NCBI GenBank assembly: GCA_021815365.1
Contig: JAKAGZ010000024.1
Coordinates: forward strand, 1 to 43,277
DNA: 43,277 nucleotides
Direction of reading: 5' to 3'
Origin: Bacteroidota bacterium
GTDB taxonomy: Bacteria > Bacteroidota > Ignavibacteria > Ignavibacteriales > Ignavibacteriaceae
Each line of letters begins with the position of its first letter. Position 1 is the first letter of the stretch. A program made the translations under genes and the position numbers. The notes below the pieces were generated by a model. The model was not told the DNA's origin, made no database searches, and was given only the letters and a program-made list of their open reading frames with translations. Shown here one piece after another: positions 25,066-40,163 of this stretch.

Positions 25066-28000
25066 TTAAAAATATACTTTAATTGTCTCTACTGAATTTT
25101 TCTTTGTTTTAACTTTTACAACTCTTCCATCAAATTTAATTGGTTTCCCATCCACTTCCATAAAATTCGATTGCAAAACTTTTTTCGGAACAGAAGGCAA
25201 GGTTAATGTTGCTTCAGTTTCTCTTCCTTCAGCATCATACCATTGGAAAATCCAAGCATCTGCCTTGCCCTCTTCGCCGCGAGGCGAGCCGGCTAGTCTC
25301 GTCTCCGACTTGTCGGAGCGGGCAAACAGGTGTAAATCTTCAGCTTTTTTAACAGTCGTCAAGACAAGATTCTTTTCATTTAGTTTAATAAAAGAATCAC
25401 TCAATGGTAATTTCCCAGGATGAATAGAATTCATTACAGCAATCAAAGGTTCATTATATTCCCAGCCTCTTCTTACAGTGTTTGCTTCTTTCCAGCTTCC
25501 TGCGTGAGGATAAAGTGCATAATCAATTGAATGCTTGCCCATATCCGCAGTCGGATCGGGCCACTTTGGAGAACGAAGCAATGATAATCGCATTACATTA
25601 CCTTTCGTGTCATAACCATATTTAGAGTTGTTCAGCAAGCTGACTCCGTAATTACCTGCCTTGCCCGCTTCGCTGCGAGGCGAGCCAGCTTGCCTCGTCT
25701 CCGACTTGTCTGAGCGGGCAGACAGGTCAGCCCAGTTTTCTGCAGGAACTTCATACCGCGCTTTCTGCCAGCTTGTTATTCTTTGGGTAGATCGTTCAAT
25801 TGATCCATAAGGAATTTCGTAAGTCGCCACAGTATCGCTGAATGAAAACGGGAAAGCGACTTTTAACATTGTATGCTCTTCCCACCAGTCAGCATCGGTT
25901 TTAAAATCAATTCTGTCAAGCCCGTTGTAAAGAATTACATCCTGCGTAAAGAATGATGAAGGAAAATTCGGAGTGGGGTAATCTTTTACAACTCCCGGTT
26001 TTAAATAATCACGGTACAGCCTTACAACAATTCTGACGGGACCGGATTCAACAACTTCTGCTTTACGGAAATGCGATGGATATTCAACACCCGTTAAACC
26101 AAGATTCCACGCATCCCATTGTTTAGGTTTATCTTCGAGCAATTGCAGCTTATTTCCTTCGCCCTTAAATAATTCCTTCCCGTTTCTTTTGTCAGTAATA
26201 TTTTTCACCCAGCCGGTTGTCGTATCAATTGAGACTGTAAAAAGCTGATTCTCCATTTTAGTTTCAGTAGCAGAAAGAGAAGCATTCGTTAAAGAAGATT
26301 TACCCCTCTTCAACACATAAGTTTTATAACCAATTGATGGAACATCTGAAGCGATGAACATTATCTGATTATGATAGCGATCGCTCTTAACCATTTGCGA
26401 AGGAATTTCTTTTCCGGTTGTTTCACAAACGGAGTAATCATTTTCATCCCCTGCCGGAAGATTAAATTTTACAATATCTGTCCTATCCCAATTTAACGGA
26501 TTGTAAACAGTTATTGGTGATCCGTCTTTTATTTCAGAAGTATTAATATTTCTATCAATTGAGCCAAGCGCGTTAGCAAGAGTGAAGCTGCCGATCTCTT
26601 TAGCCTTTTCATATTTTTCATCGGCATCAATATAATTTTCTCTGATTCCTGAACCGGGAAGTATATCATGAAATTGGTTGAACATAACTTTTTCCCAGGC
26701 ATCTCTCAAATCACTTTGAGGATATTTATTACCAAAGCTTGTTGATATCACAGAAAATTTTTCTGTTTCAGTAAGAAGGTTTTCAAGCTCTCTGTTGTAT
26801 TTTTTTACCTTAGCCTGTGTAGTGTATGTTCCGCGGTGATATTCGAGATAAAGCTCATCATCCCACACAGGAAGTTTGGAGAGGTCCTGTTTCTTCAGCC
26901 AGCCGATATATTTTGCCGCTGTCCCATATTCAATGTTGGGGTAAATAAAAAGAGTTTTGAGGTGCTCAATCCTGTTTAACATATCAATAGAGGGACCGCC
27001 GCCGTGATCACCTACTCCAAACAATATCATAAAATTCCTGAAGCCCGTGTTAGCTTCAAACTGTCTGAGCCAGTCTACTAACTGGTATGACTGCGTGATC
27101 GTATTTACATAATCGAACGGGAAGTATGAAAGGATTTTTGAACCATCGGGAGATTCCCACCAGAAAACCCTGTAAGGAAATACATTCGTATCGTTCCAGC
27201 CAATCTTTTGTGTTATGAAAGCATCAATGCCGGCGTTCTTATAAAACATCGGCATATTCCAGTTGTATCCGAAAGAATCAGGGTTCCAGCCAATCTTTAC
27301 ATCTACTCCCATTTCATCCTGAAAATATTTTTTTGCATACAAAAGCTGCCTCTCCCAGGAAACACCGCTTGGCAGATTGCAATCGGGTTCTATCCACATT
27401 CCACCAACGATCTCCCATCTGCCGTCTTTAATTCTTGCTTTAATTCCTTTAAACACATCAGGAAATTTATCCTGCATCCATTTAAAATATTGTGCGGCAC
27501 TTTGTGTATATGTAAAATCAGGTTTCTCGTCCATTATATGAAGCACAGAAGCAAAAGTATTTCTGCAGATCATTACAGTTTCAAGATCGCGCCAGAGCCA
27601 CGCTGCATCAATGTGAGCATTTGAATCGAAGAAGAGCGTGAATTTTTTTGCAAACTTTGCTACAGGTACGAGTTCTTTCTTTACTTCTTCCACTGACTCT
27701 TTGTAATTTGCAAGATCGCCTTGTTCAAGTGCGTCAACGTTAATCTTTAAAGCTTCCTCCTGAAGCAGTTTATTTAATTTTATTTTTTCATTTTTGTCGA
27801 GTGTAGATTTATCAATTCCCGGATCTGTTCTCACGCGGGCATTTGTCTGATAGGTGTCAAAACTTAAAAGTTTTTGCCCGACTTTCAAACTCAGTGCAAA
27901 ATCCTGAATCTCCTGCCTGAGCGGAGTAACGACTCCCATATCGAGCTCGGCTCTGATTAATCTTAACGGACCACCAGTATTGATCGCTTTAATAACGATA

Positions 28001-28452
28001 ACAAATTTATCTCCCGGCTTTGCATTTTCAGTTAAAACGAAATCGCCGTCCCACGGGAAATATCCTTTGCTCTCTCCGTTGATCCATAAATAACCGTAAT
28101 CATCTACTGAAAGGAGAAGTTTAACTTTTCCGTTCACAGGTGTTCCAAGAATTTGTTTTGGGAGAACAATTGTTTTTCTCAGCCAGCAGGAATCATCCGT
28201 AACGTGTTCATTAAGGCTTAGCGTCCCCCATTTTGAATCGTCAAAATTTATCGAGGTAGGGTCGCCTGCGATTACTGTTCCGCCGGAAAGATTCGGACTT
28301 TTTTTCCAGTCATCATAAGAATAAGTGCTGAGGAAAGTTAACTTCTTGGCAACTTTATCAACATTGGTTTCGTTTTTATTATCACTTTTATTTTGTGAAA
28401 GAATTATGAACGGGAACAAGGAAATGAGCAGAAAGTATTTCAACGATTTCAT
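25066..28452 (-). CDS. Secreted GH38 alpha-mannosidase with two repeat-derived insertions
   Basis: The 1128-aa protein has a signal peptide (1-19, FIILSQ) and a jelly-roll domain (about 60-175, LLLSVDDYGYLWINGE), then the GH38 catalytic barrel with zinc ligands in NAHIDAAWLW (His280, Asp282) and the nucleophile in GWNPDSFGYN (Asp392), plus WIEPDCNLPSG and FGVGDHGGGPS. The C-terminal beta domains include GVSLLNNSKYGYD and AWIFQWYDAEG. It should remove alpha-mannose residues from oligosaccharides outside the cytoplasm. At about residues 909-933 and 1041-1065 two related peptides (both containing ARSDKSETR) interrupt otherwise typical C-domain sequence; each is encoded by a 72-nt palindromic repeat. 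AAAGG precedes the ATG. Convergent with the permease gene; probably part of the minus-strand glycan locus. Confidence 0.9.
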   Translation of the reverse strand: MKSLKYFLLISLFPFIILSQNKSDNKNETNVDKVAKKLTFLSTYSYDDWKKSPNLSGGTVIAGDPTSINFDDSKWGTLSLNEHVTDDSCWLRKTIVLPKQILGTPVNGKVKLLLSVDDYGYLWINGESKGYFPWDGDFVLTENAKPGDKFVIVIKAINTGGPLRLIRAELDMGVVTPLRQEIQDFALSLKVGQKLLSFDTYQTNARVRTDPGIDKSTLDKNEKIKLNKLLQEEALKINVDALEQGDLANYKESVEEVKKELVPVAKFAKKFTLFFDSNAHIDAAWLWRDLETVMICRNTFASVLHIMDEKPDFTYTQSAAQYFKWMQDKFPDVFKGIKARIKDGRWEIVGGMWIEPDCNLPSGVSWERQLLYAKKYFQDEMGVDVKIGWNPDSFGYNWNMPMFYKNAGIDAFITQKIGWNDTNVFPYRVFWWESPDGSKILSYFPFDYVNTITQSYQLVDWLRQFEANTGFRNFMILFGVGDHGGGPSIDMLNRIEHLKTLFIYPNIEYGTAAKYIGWLKKQDLSKLPVWDDELYLEYHRGTYTTQAKVKKYNRELENLLTETEKFSVISTSFGNKYPQSDLRDAWEKVMFNQFHDILPGSGIRENYIDADEKYEKAKEIGSFTLANALGSIDRNINTSEIKDGSPITVYNPLNWDRTDIVKFNLPAGDENDYSVCETTGKEIPSQMVKSDRYHNQIMFIASDVPSIGYKTYVLKRGKSSLTNASLSATETKMENQLFTVSIDTTTGWVKNITDKRNGKELFKGEGNKLQLLEDKPKQWDAWNLGLTGVEYPSHFRKAEVVESGPVRIVVRLYRDYLKPGVVKDYPTPNFPSSFFTQDVILYNGLDRIDFKTDADWWEEHTMLKVAFPFSFSDTVATYEIPYGSIERSTQRITSWQKARYEVPAENWADLSARSDKSETRQAGSPRSEAGKAGNYGVSLLNNSKYGYDTKGNVMRLSLLRSPKWPDPTADMGKHSIDYALYPHAGSWKEANTVRRGWEYNEPLIAVMNSIHPGKLPLSDSFIKLNEKNLVLTTVKKAEDLHLFARSDKSETRLAGSPRGEEGKADAWIFQWYDAEGRETEATLTLPSVPKKVLQSNFMEVDGKPIKFDGRVVKVKTKKNSVETIKVYF
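25260..25331 (-). repeat. In-frame 72-nt palindromic repeat, copy A
   Basis: Exactly 24 codons inside the alpha-mannosidase gene, encoding a peptide with ARSDKSETRLAGSPRG. It matches copy B (25656-25727) at 65 of 72 positions. Ends are inverted repeats (CTGCCTTGCCC / GGGCAAACAGG), with an internal perfect hairpin CTCCGAC-TT-GTCGGAG and a weaker GAGGCGAGCC/GGCTAGTCTC-type stem. It lies between VKKAED and DAWIFQW, a run that looks continuous without it. Confidence 0.85.
25656..25727 (-). repeat. In-frame 72-nt palindromic repeat, copy B
   Basis: Second copy in the same gene, same orientation and reading frame, encoding ARSDKSETRQAGSPRS and neighbours. It lies between NWADL and NYGVSLLN. Terminal arms ACCTGCCTTGCCCGCT and AGCGGGCAGACAGGT pair with a few mismatches; an inner CGAGGC/GCCTCG stem is perfect. 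Confidence 0.85.
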
Positions 28453-36028: not shown

Positions 36029-36163
36029 AATTGTTTATAATCAATCAACATCCTTGCAATAATCCCGGCCCGCCCGGATGTAGGTTTTGTTCCATCCTGC
36101 CTGCAGGTCATCTGCGCTGTAAAATTTCCACAACCAGTGATTTGTTCTTAACTGGTTATCTAC
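36029..36163 (-). pseudogene. Third copy of the GH63-like gene 3' end (shortest, decayed)
   Basis: About 135 bases match the last 45 codons of the gene at 38013-40163 and of the copy at 36729, but with a 4-base insertion (36068 region) and several missense changes. It ends in its own stop after LIDYKQL, just upstream of the 870-aa glycosidase gene. Confidence 0.85.
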
Positions 36164-36169
36164 TTAGAA

Positions 36170-36457
36170 CTAACTTTTATGCCAATAACCCGGCTTCCTG
36201 TGCTGGTGAGCAACTGCCGCGATTATGATTTTATTCTCAGTATGGTAATAAATGATATTATAAGGGAAAGCATTTAATACAGCTTTACGAGTGTGTTTTG
36301 AATAATTTGAAAAAACGTCAGGATAATTTTTAATTATTGATATCGTTCTGTCAACTTCAGAAATAAATTTTCCCCCTAGTCCTTTTAATTGAAGATCATA
36401 ATATTTAACAGCATCTAAATATTCATTGTAGGCAGGTTCAAGAAATTCAATTTTCAT
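36170..36457 (-). CDS. RelE/ParE-family toxin
   Basis: The 95-aa protein is a type II toxin of the RelE/ParE superfamily: EFLEPAYNEYLDAVKYYD (N-terminal helical hairpin), GGKFISEVDRTI, YPDVFSNYSKHTRKAVLNAF and PYNIIYYHTENKIIIAAVAH, then the H-x-x-RKPGYW end typical of the ParE branch. Members act as mRNA interferases or gyrase poisons; this one looks more like ParE. Its ATG overlaps the antitoxin stop by 4 bases, so the pair is coupled. It lies between two partial copies of a glycosidase gene end. Confidence 0.85.
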   Translation of the reverse strand: MKIEFLEPAYNEYLDAVKYYDLQLKGLGGKFISEVDRTISIIKNYPDVFSNYSKHTRKAVLNAFPYNIIYYHTENKIIIAAVAHQHRKPGYWHKS

Positions 36458-36657
36458 TTTTTTAAGTTTTTATCGTAAGGTATACTTTTAATTTCACCTG
36501 CCCGATATGCTTCAAATCTCCTCTCTACTTCTTCCTTCCAGTATTTATCAATTTCTCTGTCAGGTTCACTCAGACTTTGTGATAACAGTTCAATGAGGTA
36601 AAGCCTTTCTGACGGACTCAAATTTAAAGCGTCTTTAATAATACTATTAGAATTCAT
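36454..36657 (-). CDS. Addiction-module antitoxin (Unstab_antitox type)
   Basis: The 67-aa protein matches the short antitoxin family paired with RelE/ParE toxins: ALNLSPSERLYLIELLSQSL then PDREIDKYWKEEVERRFEAY and a GEIKSIPYD tail. The helical N-terminus and extended C-terminal toxin-wrapping segment are typical. AAGGG precedes the ATG. It is the first gene of the pair and overlaps the toxin by 4 bases; autorepression by the complex is usual in the family. Confidence 0.85.
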   Translation of the reverse strand: MNSNSIIKDALNLSPSERLYLIELLSQSLSEPDREIDKYWKEEVERRFEAYRAGEIKSIPYDKNLKK

Positions 36658-36685
36658 TTTATACCCTTAAAATTTTTATGAGTCA

Positions 36686-36714
36686 ATAATAGAAAAGGTG
36701 GGCTATAAATTCAA
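36686..36714 (-). promoter_or_regulatory. Candidate sigma70-type promoter of the RelE/ParE module
   Basis: On the minus strand TTGAAT (36714-36709), a 17-base spacer and TATTAT (36691-36686) lie 29 bases before the antitoxin start. Spacing is ideal and both boxes are close to consensus. Confidence 0.5.
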
Positions 36715-36728
36715 GTCTGGTAATACAG

Positions 36729-36999
36729 CTATTGTAACTCGTTATAATCAATCAACATCCTTGCAATAATTCCAGCCCAGATGTACGTTCTATTCCATCC
36801 CGCCTGCAAATCATCAGCGCTGTAAAATTCCCAGAACCAGTGGTTTGTTCTTAACTGGTAATCTACATTTTTTAAAACTTTTTTCACTAATTCTTTTGCT
36901 CCTTTTTTATAACCGTAGTCAATCAGTCCGCGGAAAATTAAATACTGCCATTGTGTCCACACAGGTCCGTTCCAGTAACCGATTGGATTGTAATAATTG
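36729..36999 (-). pseudogene. Second copy of the GH63-like gene 3' end
   Basis: About 271 bases match the 3' end of the gene at 38013-40163 at roughly 93 percent, including 82 bases with no difference. It encodes YYNPIGYWNGPVWTQWQYL through LIDYNELQ and its own stop, without any start or N-terminal 85 percent. Differences are mostly synonymous or conservative, as between paralogues, so it may be what is left of a tandem gene copy. The upstream break is near 36999. Confidence 0.88.
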
Positions 37000-38012: not shown

Positions 38013-40163
38013 TCATGGCTCAGGCAATATTTTATCATAATCAATCAGCATCTTTGCGATAATCCCCGCCCAGATGTAGGTTTTGTTCCATCCAGCCTGC
38101 AGATCATCCGAGCTGTAAAATTCCCAGAACCAGTGGTTTGTTCTTAACTGGTAATCTACATTTTTTAAAACTTTTTTCACTAATTCTTTTGCTTCTTTTT
38201 TATAGCCGTAGTCAATCAGTCCGCGGAAAACCAGATACTGCCATTGTGTCCACACAGGTCCGTTCCAGTAACCGATCGGATTGTAATAACTGTCATCGGC
38301 TGAAAGAGACGGAACACCGAACCTTCGCCAGAATTCTTTTTTGTTTGTTAAATGTTTTATCAATTCCTTTGCCTGATCCTTATTTGCGACTCCCGCCCAC
38401 AACGCAAGAAATGCAATTATTTCTTTTCTCTTTAAATCATTTTTCTTTTTGAAAGTGAAAGAATGGTTGTCTTTATTAATGTTATAATAAAATTTCGTTT
38501 CGGGATCCCACATATATTTATTTATCAGAGCAGTTCTTTTTTCATAATTTTTTTTGAACGATTTTGCTTCATCCGTCAGACCGAGTTCATTCGCCATCTT
38601 TTCGAGAGATTTTGCTTCCTTAACCAGCATTAAATTTAAATCAACAGCATCGAAGTTCGATGGGTCGCCGACTTTATCCCAGACAGCTACAAGCCCGTCG
38701 CGCACACACTCAAGCACCCCGTTCCCTCCCCATTCACAAAGTCCATCATTATTTGAATCCCGGTTCTTCATAAAATACTCAAATAATTTTCTACCTGATT
38801 TGTACGCATCTTCCAGAAATTTTTTACCTGCCTGTCCAGCCCGCTCCGCCGATGCAGAAGTGAGGCGAGCAGGCAGGTCTTTCGTCAATTTATAAATTTC
38901 CCAATTCTCCCAGTTAAACCATGGAGCTGAAGTTGTGAGCTGACCATTTTCGGGAATCGTTTCATTCAGGTAGGGACCTGTCCGGTAATTTATGTAGCCA
39001 TCAGGATGCTGTCTTTCCATAAAAACTCTCTGAGAGTTCATTGCACCCTGCGGATCCATATAAACATAAGCAAGCATTGAGAGACTTTCGTGAAAAACCT
39101 GTCCGCCGTATCCCCATCCCCATCGTGGCTCGCGTGAAAAAACATAATAATTGTAGCTGCATTTGCCTTCCGGCGGCAGCATACATTGCCGCAGCAGTGA
39201 AAAAGCATTCCAGTAAAGAGCGTTGTAACCTTTTTCTTTAAAGTCTATACGAGGAATTTGGCTGTAGCCCTCTTCATCTTCCCTTACAAATTCTTCTGAA
39301 TTTTTGGTCATTAGTAACTGGCAATTGGTAATTAGTGAGGTTAAATCTTTTTCAGCTTCGTTGATTCCCCTTATAATTTTTAATGTTACTGAACTGCCTG
39401 CGGGAACAGATAAACTCTTTTGAAGAGAAATTATTTTTGCATATCTGTAATCAGCAGGATTTTTCAGGCTATCATTTTTAAGATCGTTAAGAAAAACTTT
39501 GTCGGAAGTATCTTTCACAGAATTAAAAAAATTATATGCACCGTGTCCGTCAGGTTTAAGGTTCATCAATAAAACATCCGTAATATCTTCCTGGAAAGGA
39601 ATATTGTGATCTTTCATCCACCTGTCAGGAAATTCTTTGTGATTAAATTGCATACCGTCATCAAGTGTTCTTAAATCAGAAAAGCTCTCGTTGATATTCT
39701 GAATGAAAGGATAAACGTTGACATCTAGTTCAAAAGGAGATTCATTTATTATTTTCATTTCACTAACAGCAATGCGCGAGCTGTAAACCAAAAAAGTATT
39801 TTCGATTTTTAAATCCTTAAAGGGGTAATAATAAAATTTAACAAGATCACTGTATGAAGCTGTTATGACCGGTCGTTTATAGAATTGAGAAAGTTTGTAT
39901 TTGATAATCCCGTTTAATTTAAATGCAGTCCCGAGTTCTCCAGCCTGAGCCGATCTAAAGCACATCCCTTTTTCAGGATCGTACCAGACGAACTGGTAAC
40001 CTTCGTTTACTTTATATTCTGATCTGTTCAGTGCGGCGGCGTACGTAGTGTAAATAGGATCGTTTTGTGTTACATTAAGATTGGAGAGATAATTTTGTGA
40101 AAAAGAATTGAAGAAAATAATTAAAACTAAAATTGCTGTACGATTTATACTTTTAAAATGCAT
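38013..40163 (-). CDS. Secreted GH63-like (alpha/alpha)6 glycosidase
   Basis: The 716-aa protein has a signal peptide (about 1-22, FFNSFSQ), an N-terminal beta-sandwich domain (residues 30-270), and an (alpha/alpha)6 barrel of the GH63/mannosylglycerate hydrolase-like clan: EPRWGWGYGGQVFHESLSML, KNRDSNNDGLCEWGG, DAVDLNLMLVKEAKSL, PIGYWNGPVWTQWQYLVFRG (the family hallmark) and WEFYSSDDLQAGWN. It likely trims glucose- or mannose-linked oligosaccharides outside the cytoplasm. A 51-nt palindromic repeat encodes residues about 429-446. Its last 90 codons are copied twice downstream. It begins 13 bases after the 1032-aa glycosidase stop, so the two are in one operon. Confidence 0.83.
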   Translation of the reverse strand: MHFKSINRTAILVLIIFFNSFSQNYLSNLNVTQNDPIYTTYAAALNRSEYKVNEGYQFVWYDPEKGMCFRSAQAGELGTAFKLNGIIKYKLSQFYKRPVITASYSDLVKFYYYPFKDLKIENTFLVYSSRIAVSEMKIINESPFELDVNVYPFIQNINESFSDLRTLDDGMQFNHKEFPDRWMKDHNIPFQEDITDVLLMNLKPDGHGAYNFFNSVKDTSDKVFLNDLKNDSLKNPADYRYAKIISLQKSLSVPAGSSVTLKIIRGINEAEKDLTSLITNCQLLMTKNSEEFVREDEEGYSQIPRIDFKEKGYNALYWNAFSLLRQCMLPPEGKCSYNYYVFSREPRWGWGYGGQVFHESLSMLAYVYMDPQGAMNSQRVFMERQHPDGYINYRTGPYLNETIPENGQLTTSAPWFNWENWEIYKLTKDLPARLTSASAERAGQAGKKFLEDAYKSGRKLFEYFMKNRDSNNDGLCEWGGNGVLECVRDGLVAVWDKVGDPSNFDAVDLNLMLVKEAKSLEKMANELGLTDEAKSFKKNYEKRTALINKYMWDPETKFYYNINKDNHSFTFKKKNDLKRKEIIAFLALWAGVANKDQAKELIKHLTNKKEFWRRFGVPSLSADDSYYNPIGYWNGPVWTQWQYLVFRGLIDYGYKKEAKELVKKVLKNVDYQLRTNHWFWEFYSSDDLQAGWNKTYIWAGIIAKMLIDYDKILPEP
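38828..38878 (-). repeat. In-frame 51-nt palindromic repeat, copy C
   Basis: Exactly 17 codons inside the GH63-like gene, giving LPARLTSASAERAGQAG between YKLTKD and KKFLEDAYK. Outer arms ACCTGCCTG (38826) and CAGGCAGGT (ending 38878) are perfect inverted repeats; an inner CGCC/GGCG stem follows. The ends and frame (D-L-x-A-R start, A-G end) match copies A and B in the alpha-mannosidase gene, while the middle differs. Confidence 0.8.

Follow-up and report, generated by a model that had tools for sequence, protein, structure and literature searches.

Two composite palindromic inserts in a Bacteroidota alpha-mannosidase gene, probably members of a family of ultra-short palindromic insertion elements

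The window (the whole 43,277-nt stretch analysed here) carries a GH38 alpha-mannosidase gene that holds two near-identical palindromic inserts, copies A and B, and an MGH1-like glycosidase gene with a third, divergent one that was not in an earlier note on this DNA. These features, with the units that make up the inserts, are as follows.

25066-28452, minus strand: GH38 alpha-mannosidase gene, an intact ORF of 1128 aa with both composite inserts (domains Glyco_hydro_38N, Alpha-mann_mid and Glyco_hydro_38C)
25260-25331, minus strand: copy A, a 72-nt palindromic composite spanning residues about 1041-1063, with a net gain of 24 codons relative to orthologues
25268-25288, plus strand: 21-nt unit of copy A (CCCTCTTCGCCGCGAGGCGAG)
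25293-25322, minus strand: 30-nt unit of copy A (CCCGCTCCGACAAGTCGGAGACGAGACTAG); a similar 30-mer occurs in G059
25656-25727, minus strand: copy B, a 72-nt palindromic composite spanning residues about 912-932, with a net gain of 20 codons relative to orthologues
25664-25684, plus strand: exact 21-nt unit of copy B (CCCGCTTCGCTGCGAGGCGAG)
25689-25718, minus strand: 30-nt unit of copy B (CCCGCTCAGACAAGTCGGAGACGAGGCAAG), resembling CCCGCTTCGACTCGTCGAAGACGAGGCGAG of a Levybacteria genome (24/30 identical by eye)
38013-40163, minus strand: MGH1-like / GH63-related glycosidase gene, host of the third insert
38826-38878, minus strand: third in-frame insert, a gain of 17 aa relative to three orthologues, related to the units of A and B
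38840-38869: 30-nt unit of the third insert (CCCGCTCCGCCGATGCAGAAGTGAGGCGAG, given in plus-strand sense), flanked by the arms CCTGCCTG and CAGGCAGG

The earlier note had described two 72-nt repeats lying in frame within the alpha-mannosidase gene, and their positions, their identity (65/72, or 90%) and the intact reading frame were all borne out. Both copies encode a peptide of the form ...ARSDKSETRxAGSPRxEeGKA.... The earlier note would have counted the same peptide in orthologues without palindromic DNA against its reading; neither insert is present in any of eight GH38 orthologues from related genomes (seven at 54-66% protein identity, the eighth at 33%), where WADLS--xNYG and KKAED--DAW run continuously across the two sites. 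In a moderate-quality AlphaFold model (mean pLDDT 71.8), insert A, at residues 1041-1063, is a disordered loop with a beta strand on either side. The copies could fold into hairpins of -28.7 to -35.8 kcal/mol, with z-scores of -1.0 to -2.9 against shuffled sequences; this hairpin potential is real, yet modest for such GC-rich DNA.

It is an even bet that one copy (B or A) arose from its partner by local duplication or gene conversion within the GH38 gene. The combination of a 30-nt and a 21-nt unit is common to both, and is complete only at these two places. Moreover, the net gain at copy B is 60 nt rather than 72, because the flanking ACCTGTCTGCC/GGT looks partly native, and the history of copy B is thus not a single clean insertion. 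However, local duplication accounts for the A/B pair only and not for the family described below, and the surrounding gene sequence is not duplicated. It is thus compatible with our preferred explanation, that A and B belong to a family of insertion elements, and is not an alternative to it.

Although 72 nt had been taken as the repeat unit, the 72-mer is a composite that joins a 21-nt unit (CCCGCTTCGCnGCGAGGCGAG) to a related one of 30 nt, with CCTG/CAGG arms on the outside; the elementary unit is 21 nt (or 30 nt) long. Read on the plus strand, a copy consists of an 8-nt arm, the 21-nt unit, CCGG or CCAG, the 30-nt unit in the opposite sense, and a 9-nt arm. The basic unit, GC-rich and seven codons long, is an imperfect palindrome (CCCGCTTCGC-n-GCGAGGCGAG), whose 10-nt arms are complementary except at two positions, a T.G wobble and a C.A mismatch. 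Rfam gave no match above the gathering score in the GH38 gene region. We also considered whether six open frames are a special trait of the 21-mer, and dropped the idea; 60% of shuffles have six open frames too.

Variants of 18, 24, 27 and 30 nt share their ends with the 21-nt unit. The fixed 21-mer search pattern is biased towards 21 nt. In a search with a free centre, among unit lengths besides 21, 27 of the 34 distinct variants measured 18, 24, 27 or 30 nt, all multiples of three (p about 5e-8 on the assumption that lengths are independent and uniform, from which related variants depart to some extent). The free-length search also returned a few variants off multiples of three (22, 26, 28 and 29 nt), and 30-nt variants are common too in some carriers. 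We set the insert length from empty sites in orthologues; a deletion scan for restoration of the palindrome was too broad to give one.

The earlier note would also have given up its reading had the repeat been found nowhere else in this genome. It does occur elsewhere, in the form of its core; with up to three mismatches allowed, a 20-nt core matches at 23 places across the 3.09 Mb (one match is poor), against none for a backwards-pattern control, and the full 72-mer is confined to A and B. Across 40 sampled stretches of the genome (about 0.8 Mb), 12-mers of the core rank among the most over-represented k-mers. Copies are intergenic as well as inside gltB, rsmI, mutS, alr, class II aldolase, MFS, SDR, M61 peptidase and ABC-2 genes (names from family searches). 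For gltB, a YyaL-like gene (named from sequence; a fragment without a Pfam match), rsmI, mutS, alr and the MGH1-like gene, the segment is missing from all orthologues examined, leaving gaps of 7, 10, 18, 14, 36 and 17 aa, respectively; the 7-aa gap in gltB counts as an empty site. Copies inside genes are always in frame, and collectively they use all six reading frames. The conserved frame and orientation previously noted are therefore true of the A/B pair only, whose common frame follows from A and B being near-copies of a single composite.

Other repeats were seen in the same genome. Just downstream of the MGH1-like gene, two partial repeats of its 3' end (window positions 36035-36999 compared with 38013-38292) are 86-95% identical to it, as if left by a decayed gene duplication. 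A 20-nt palindrome, CCTGTCTGCCGACAGGCAGG, is placed exactly at TTATTG^TAGAA within another repeat (L035:453-472 and L041:15800-15819) that resembles the repeats around this genome's RAYT gene. An uninterrupted relative lies at about 24.85 kb in the window, upstream of the GH38 gene.

Outside this genome, the distribution of the unit is patchy. A search of 246 other genomes from the host's phylum for the 21-mer with at most one mismatch returned no copy, and 58 close relatives gave one weak match to the core. Other genomes contain the exact 21-mer in at least 86 stretches. By hand tally, the 55 named carrier assemblies among the matches listed comprise 42 Patescibacteria, 4 Omnitrophota, 3 Bacteroidota, 2 Margulisbacteria, 1 Nitrospirota, 1 Elusimicrobiota and 2 that are unplaced. 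The 21-mer thus spans at least six phyla, with scattered carriers; among the Patescibacteria sampled, it occurs in 7/380 genomes, the query genome counted. Carriers hold 1-11 copies each, with in-frame insertions in secA, alaS, leuS, murE, glmS and gyrB; nrdJ and comEC are host genes too. The viral contigs searched contained no exact copy. Given the identical sequence and the patchy occurrence, horizontal spread is presumably the best explanation.

In some carriers the unit has company. Flavobacteriia MAGs (L150, L160, L162, L175, L181, L187) have the 21-mer embedded in a conserved repeat of greater length, TTTTTAATGGTCAGA-21mer-TG, and 18-nt forms of the unit lie close by. The leucyl-tRNA synthetase gene of a Levybacteria MAG (L138:5784-7955) has a 21-mer insert together with further repeat-like segments, such as NPSASLRSSTPRSLRRSSRGLSPEGLEEARV. 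As close copies might bound a composite transposon, we looked at what lies between them, and dropped this idea; there is only a glyA-like gene and leuS, and no transposase.

The precision of insertion can be read from three empty sites in Levybacteria (pairs L185/L246, L186/L271 and L198/L248), aligned at the DNA level between relatives of about 70% identity rather than near-identical strains. These are TTTTTGG^[21]^TAATAAATAAATATGC vs TTTTTGGTTATAAATAAATATGC, ACTTTA^[21]^TATTTTTTG vs ACTTTATATTTTTTG, and (CGAATTT)2^[21]^(CGAATTT)2 vs (CGAATTT)4. At all three, exactly 21 nt are gained and the target is neither duplicated nor deleted. The junction is purine^pyrimidine (R^Y) in 61/81 cases, compared with 22% at random, and apart from this no conserved tetra- or pentanucleotide lies 5' of the insertions. 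An outer inverted repeat encloses 21 of 93 copies (shuffled mean 4.8, maximum 11), and period-7 tandems hold 9 of the 93 (shuffled mean 1.2, maximum 4). Copies lie in ORFs in 64/88 cases (73%) vs 84% of random positions, a deficit that the purging of harmful insertions would produce; insertions in genes are tolerated but mildly purged.

Two kinds of target region deserve separate mention. In alaS of Levybacteria (L186, L245, L251, L253, L263, L269, L277), the short palindrome found at one site varies with the species (the 21-mer, TGTCCTGAGCCTGTCGAAGGA, CCTCTCCCTATGGGAGAGG and composites), and this site is an insertion hot spot common to unrelated palindromes. AT-rich period-7 tandems (AACTTTG, CAATTTT, CGAATTT and others) are found in Microgenomates genes (L138, L142, L165, L170, L177, L196, L198, L248), where they serve as targets of the 21-mer and look like another class of insert.

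We therefore regard copies A and B as composites belonging to a family of very short, GC-rich palindromic insertion elements that insert precisely within genes, spread in trans and horizontally, and encode neutral peptides (probability about 0.75). The unit of 21 nt (with variants of 18, 24, 27 and 30 nt) inserts at R^Y, often in the loops of other palindromes or in AT-rich period-7 tandems, and adds at least seven codons to a conserved protein in any of six frames. With lengths divisible by three and few stop codons, it can survive inside genes. In this genome, a 30-nt and a 21-nt unit in opposite orientation, set in CCTG.../...CAGG arms, form the 72-nt composite that occurs twice in the GH38 gene. 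The peptides would be neutral, tolerated in surface loops without selection for function, and transfer between phyla would be horizontal.

How the units move is more tentative. Clean, duplication-free insertion of a hairpin at loop-prone sites suggests a single-strand route, to which we give slightly less than even odds; a folded single-stranded hairpin (or its circle) would insert into an exposed single-stranded target. The enzyme would act in trans, encoded neither by the element nor next to it, which is a guess. In a bolder reading, to which we give somewhat less than even odds, this 21-nt palindrome, about two helical turns long, is among the smallest mobile DNA units known, inserted by a machine that places folded single strands cleanly at R^Y. 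It may have crossed phyla horizontally with its sequence unchanged, its codon-multiple lengths reflecting a life largely inside protein genes, and the same machine may move the other hot-spot palindromes (e.g. TGTCCTGAGCCTGTCGAAGGA and CCTGCCTGCCGGCAGGCAGG).

A more familiar proposal is that the units are REPs moved by their own REP-associated tyrosine transposase (RAYT, Y1_Tnp). Y1_Tnp has four matches in this genome and is present in 13 of 16 carrier genomes, and the lack of target duplication is what one expects of IS200/IS605-type enzymes. However, the remaining three carriers have no Y1_Tnp match, and the unit adjoins none of the 33 RAYT loci scanned (3 of this genome's own and 30 from carriers), with a single core match about 1 kb away. 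At many of these loci it is other palindromes that flank or neighbour the gene. Both the GTAG tag and a conserved tetranucleotide 5' of the insertions are also missing. We thus consider a dedicated RAYT unlikely, while movement in trans by a RAYT is possible. Separately, RAYT genes at L026, L028, L223, L227 and L240 have their own distinct palindromes on their flanks (CCTCTACGAGG, ACCTCGAAGGTC, TGGGCTAGGACGGTCCTAGCCCA and others), and these are possibly undescribed RAYT/REP pairs.

It seems improbable that replication errors templated at hairpins create the palindromes de novo time and again, with no element moving. Nested palindromes, insertion in hairpin loops and variable centres would all fit such an origin, but the same asymmetric 21-mer, including its mismatched positions, is found in unrelated genomes of at least six phyla, and the sites in L185 and L186 lack any template for it. 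Even less probable is that the segments are selected functional peptide linkers and the DNA palindromes a by-product. In-frame persistence across many conserved proteins would be explained; however, the use of all six frames argues against selection on the peptide, as the frames give unrelated peptides (PLRSEAS, PASQRGE, ARFAARR, LASLRSG, ARLAAKR and SPRSEAG), there are intergenic copies, and none of the orthologues examined has the segments. Finally, although the carriers named among the matches listed are MAGs or uncultured bins, an assembly or sequencing artefact is scarcely credible, given that the assemblies are independent and come from many laboratories, that one record (CP070837) is a closed chromosome, that the unit lengths leave reading frames open, that sequence variants are lineage-specific, and that the unit is absent from the 246 other genomes of the phylum.

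The spread of protein-coding palindromes such as the Rickettsia elements has long been unexplained, and the unit found here is short and sharply defined. Its empty sites, resolved to single bases in several phyla, provide a target rule (R^Y, loops and no duplication) for any proposed enzyme. Essential proteins of uncultured bacteria, including SecA, AlaRS, LeuRS, MurE, GlmS, GyrB and MutS, contain peptide insertions derived from DNA elements, which bears on MAG annotation, structure prediction and phylogenetics.

Several known systems resemble this family in part. We found no description of the 21-nt unit in the literature searched (RPE, REP and MITE papers were found; subscription papers and preprints were outside its scope), and its novelty in print is uncertain. 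MITEs (ERIC, NEMIS/Correia, RUP) are about 100-200 bp long, several duplicate their target, and in-frame fusions are known (PMC2229807). They are non-autonomous and in-frame like the 21-nt family, whereas the target-site duplication of a DDE-type MITE is absent at the three empty sites. IS200/IS605-type elements (HUH Y1) share the lack of target duplication, but insert 3' of a conserved tetra- or pentanucleotide, which we did not find. GTAG REPs and REPINs moved by RAYT are likewise short hairpins in inverted pairs, and the 21-nt family shows no target duplication; however, its unit bears no GTAG tag and flanks no RAYT gene (33 loci).

The closest parallels are with two groups. Rickettsia palindromic elements (RPEs) are 105-146 bp long with 12-bp terminal inverted repeats (PMC2229807). 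Like the 21-nt family, these Rickettsia (and Wolbachia) elements lie in frame in conserved protein genes as well as in intergenic regions, and their mechanism is unexplained (PMC2229807). The earlier note had drawn this parallel, and it stands in that palindromic DNA repeats, of another sequence and in another host, have made new protein segments in conserved proteins; it fails for the conservation of frame and orientation. As in RPEs, the in-frame palindromic insert in a conserved gene is missing from orthologues. Compared by description, length and host differ, with a unit of 21 nt (18-30) and a composite of 72 nt in Patescibacteria and other phyla; the unit also uses all six frames and keeps an identical sequence over at least six phyla. 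CGTC-tagged REPs, which include RPE-4/RPE-6 and Neisseria CGTC-1 (Di Nocera et al. 2013; PMC3733652), are tiny palindromes of several phyla with intragenic copies, no dedicated transposase and some nesting in palindromes (PMC3733652). The 21-nt unit shares all of these traits, and two of its copies lie inside CGTC-1-like palindromes (L136 and L154; resemblance by eye). By the published description, however, the unit and its flanks lack the CGTC (or TGTC/CCTC) tag, the A/T at the stem base and the CCA-like tail; the stem here is 10 bp with a 1-nt centre, and exact insertion is demonstrated at empty sites. As the length and host of RPEs, the CGTC tag and CCA tail, and the GTAG tag and RAYT linkage are all unmatched, we assign the 21-nt family to none of these classes; it fits the definition of neither RPEs nor CGTC REPs, yet it behaves like them.
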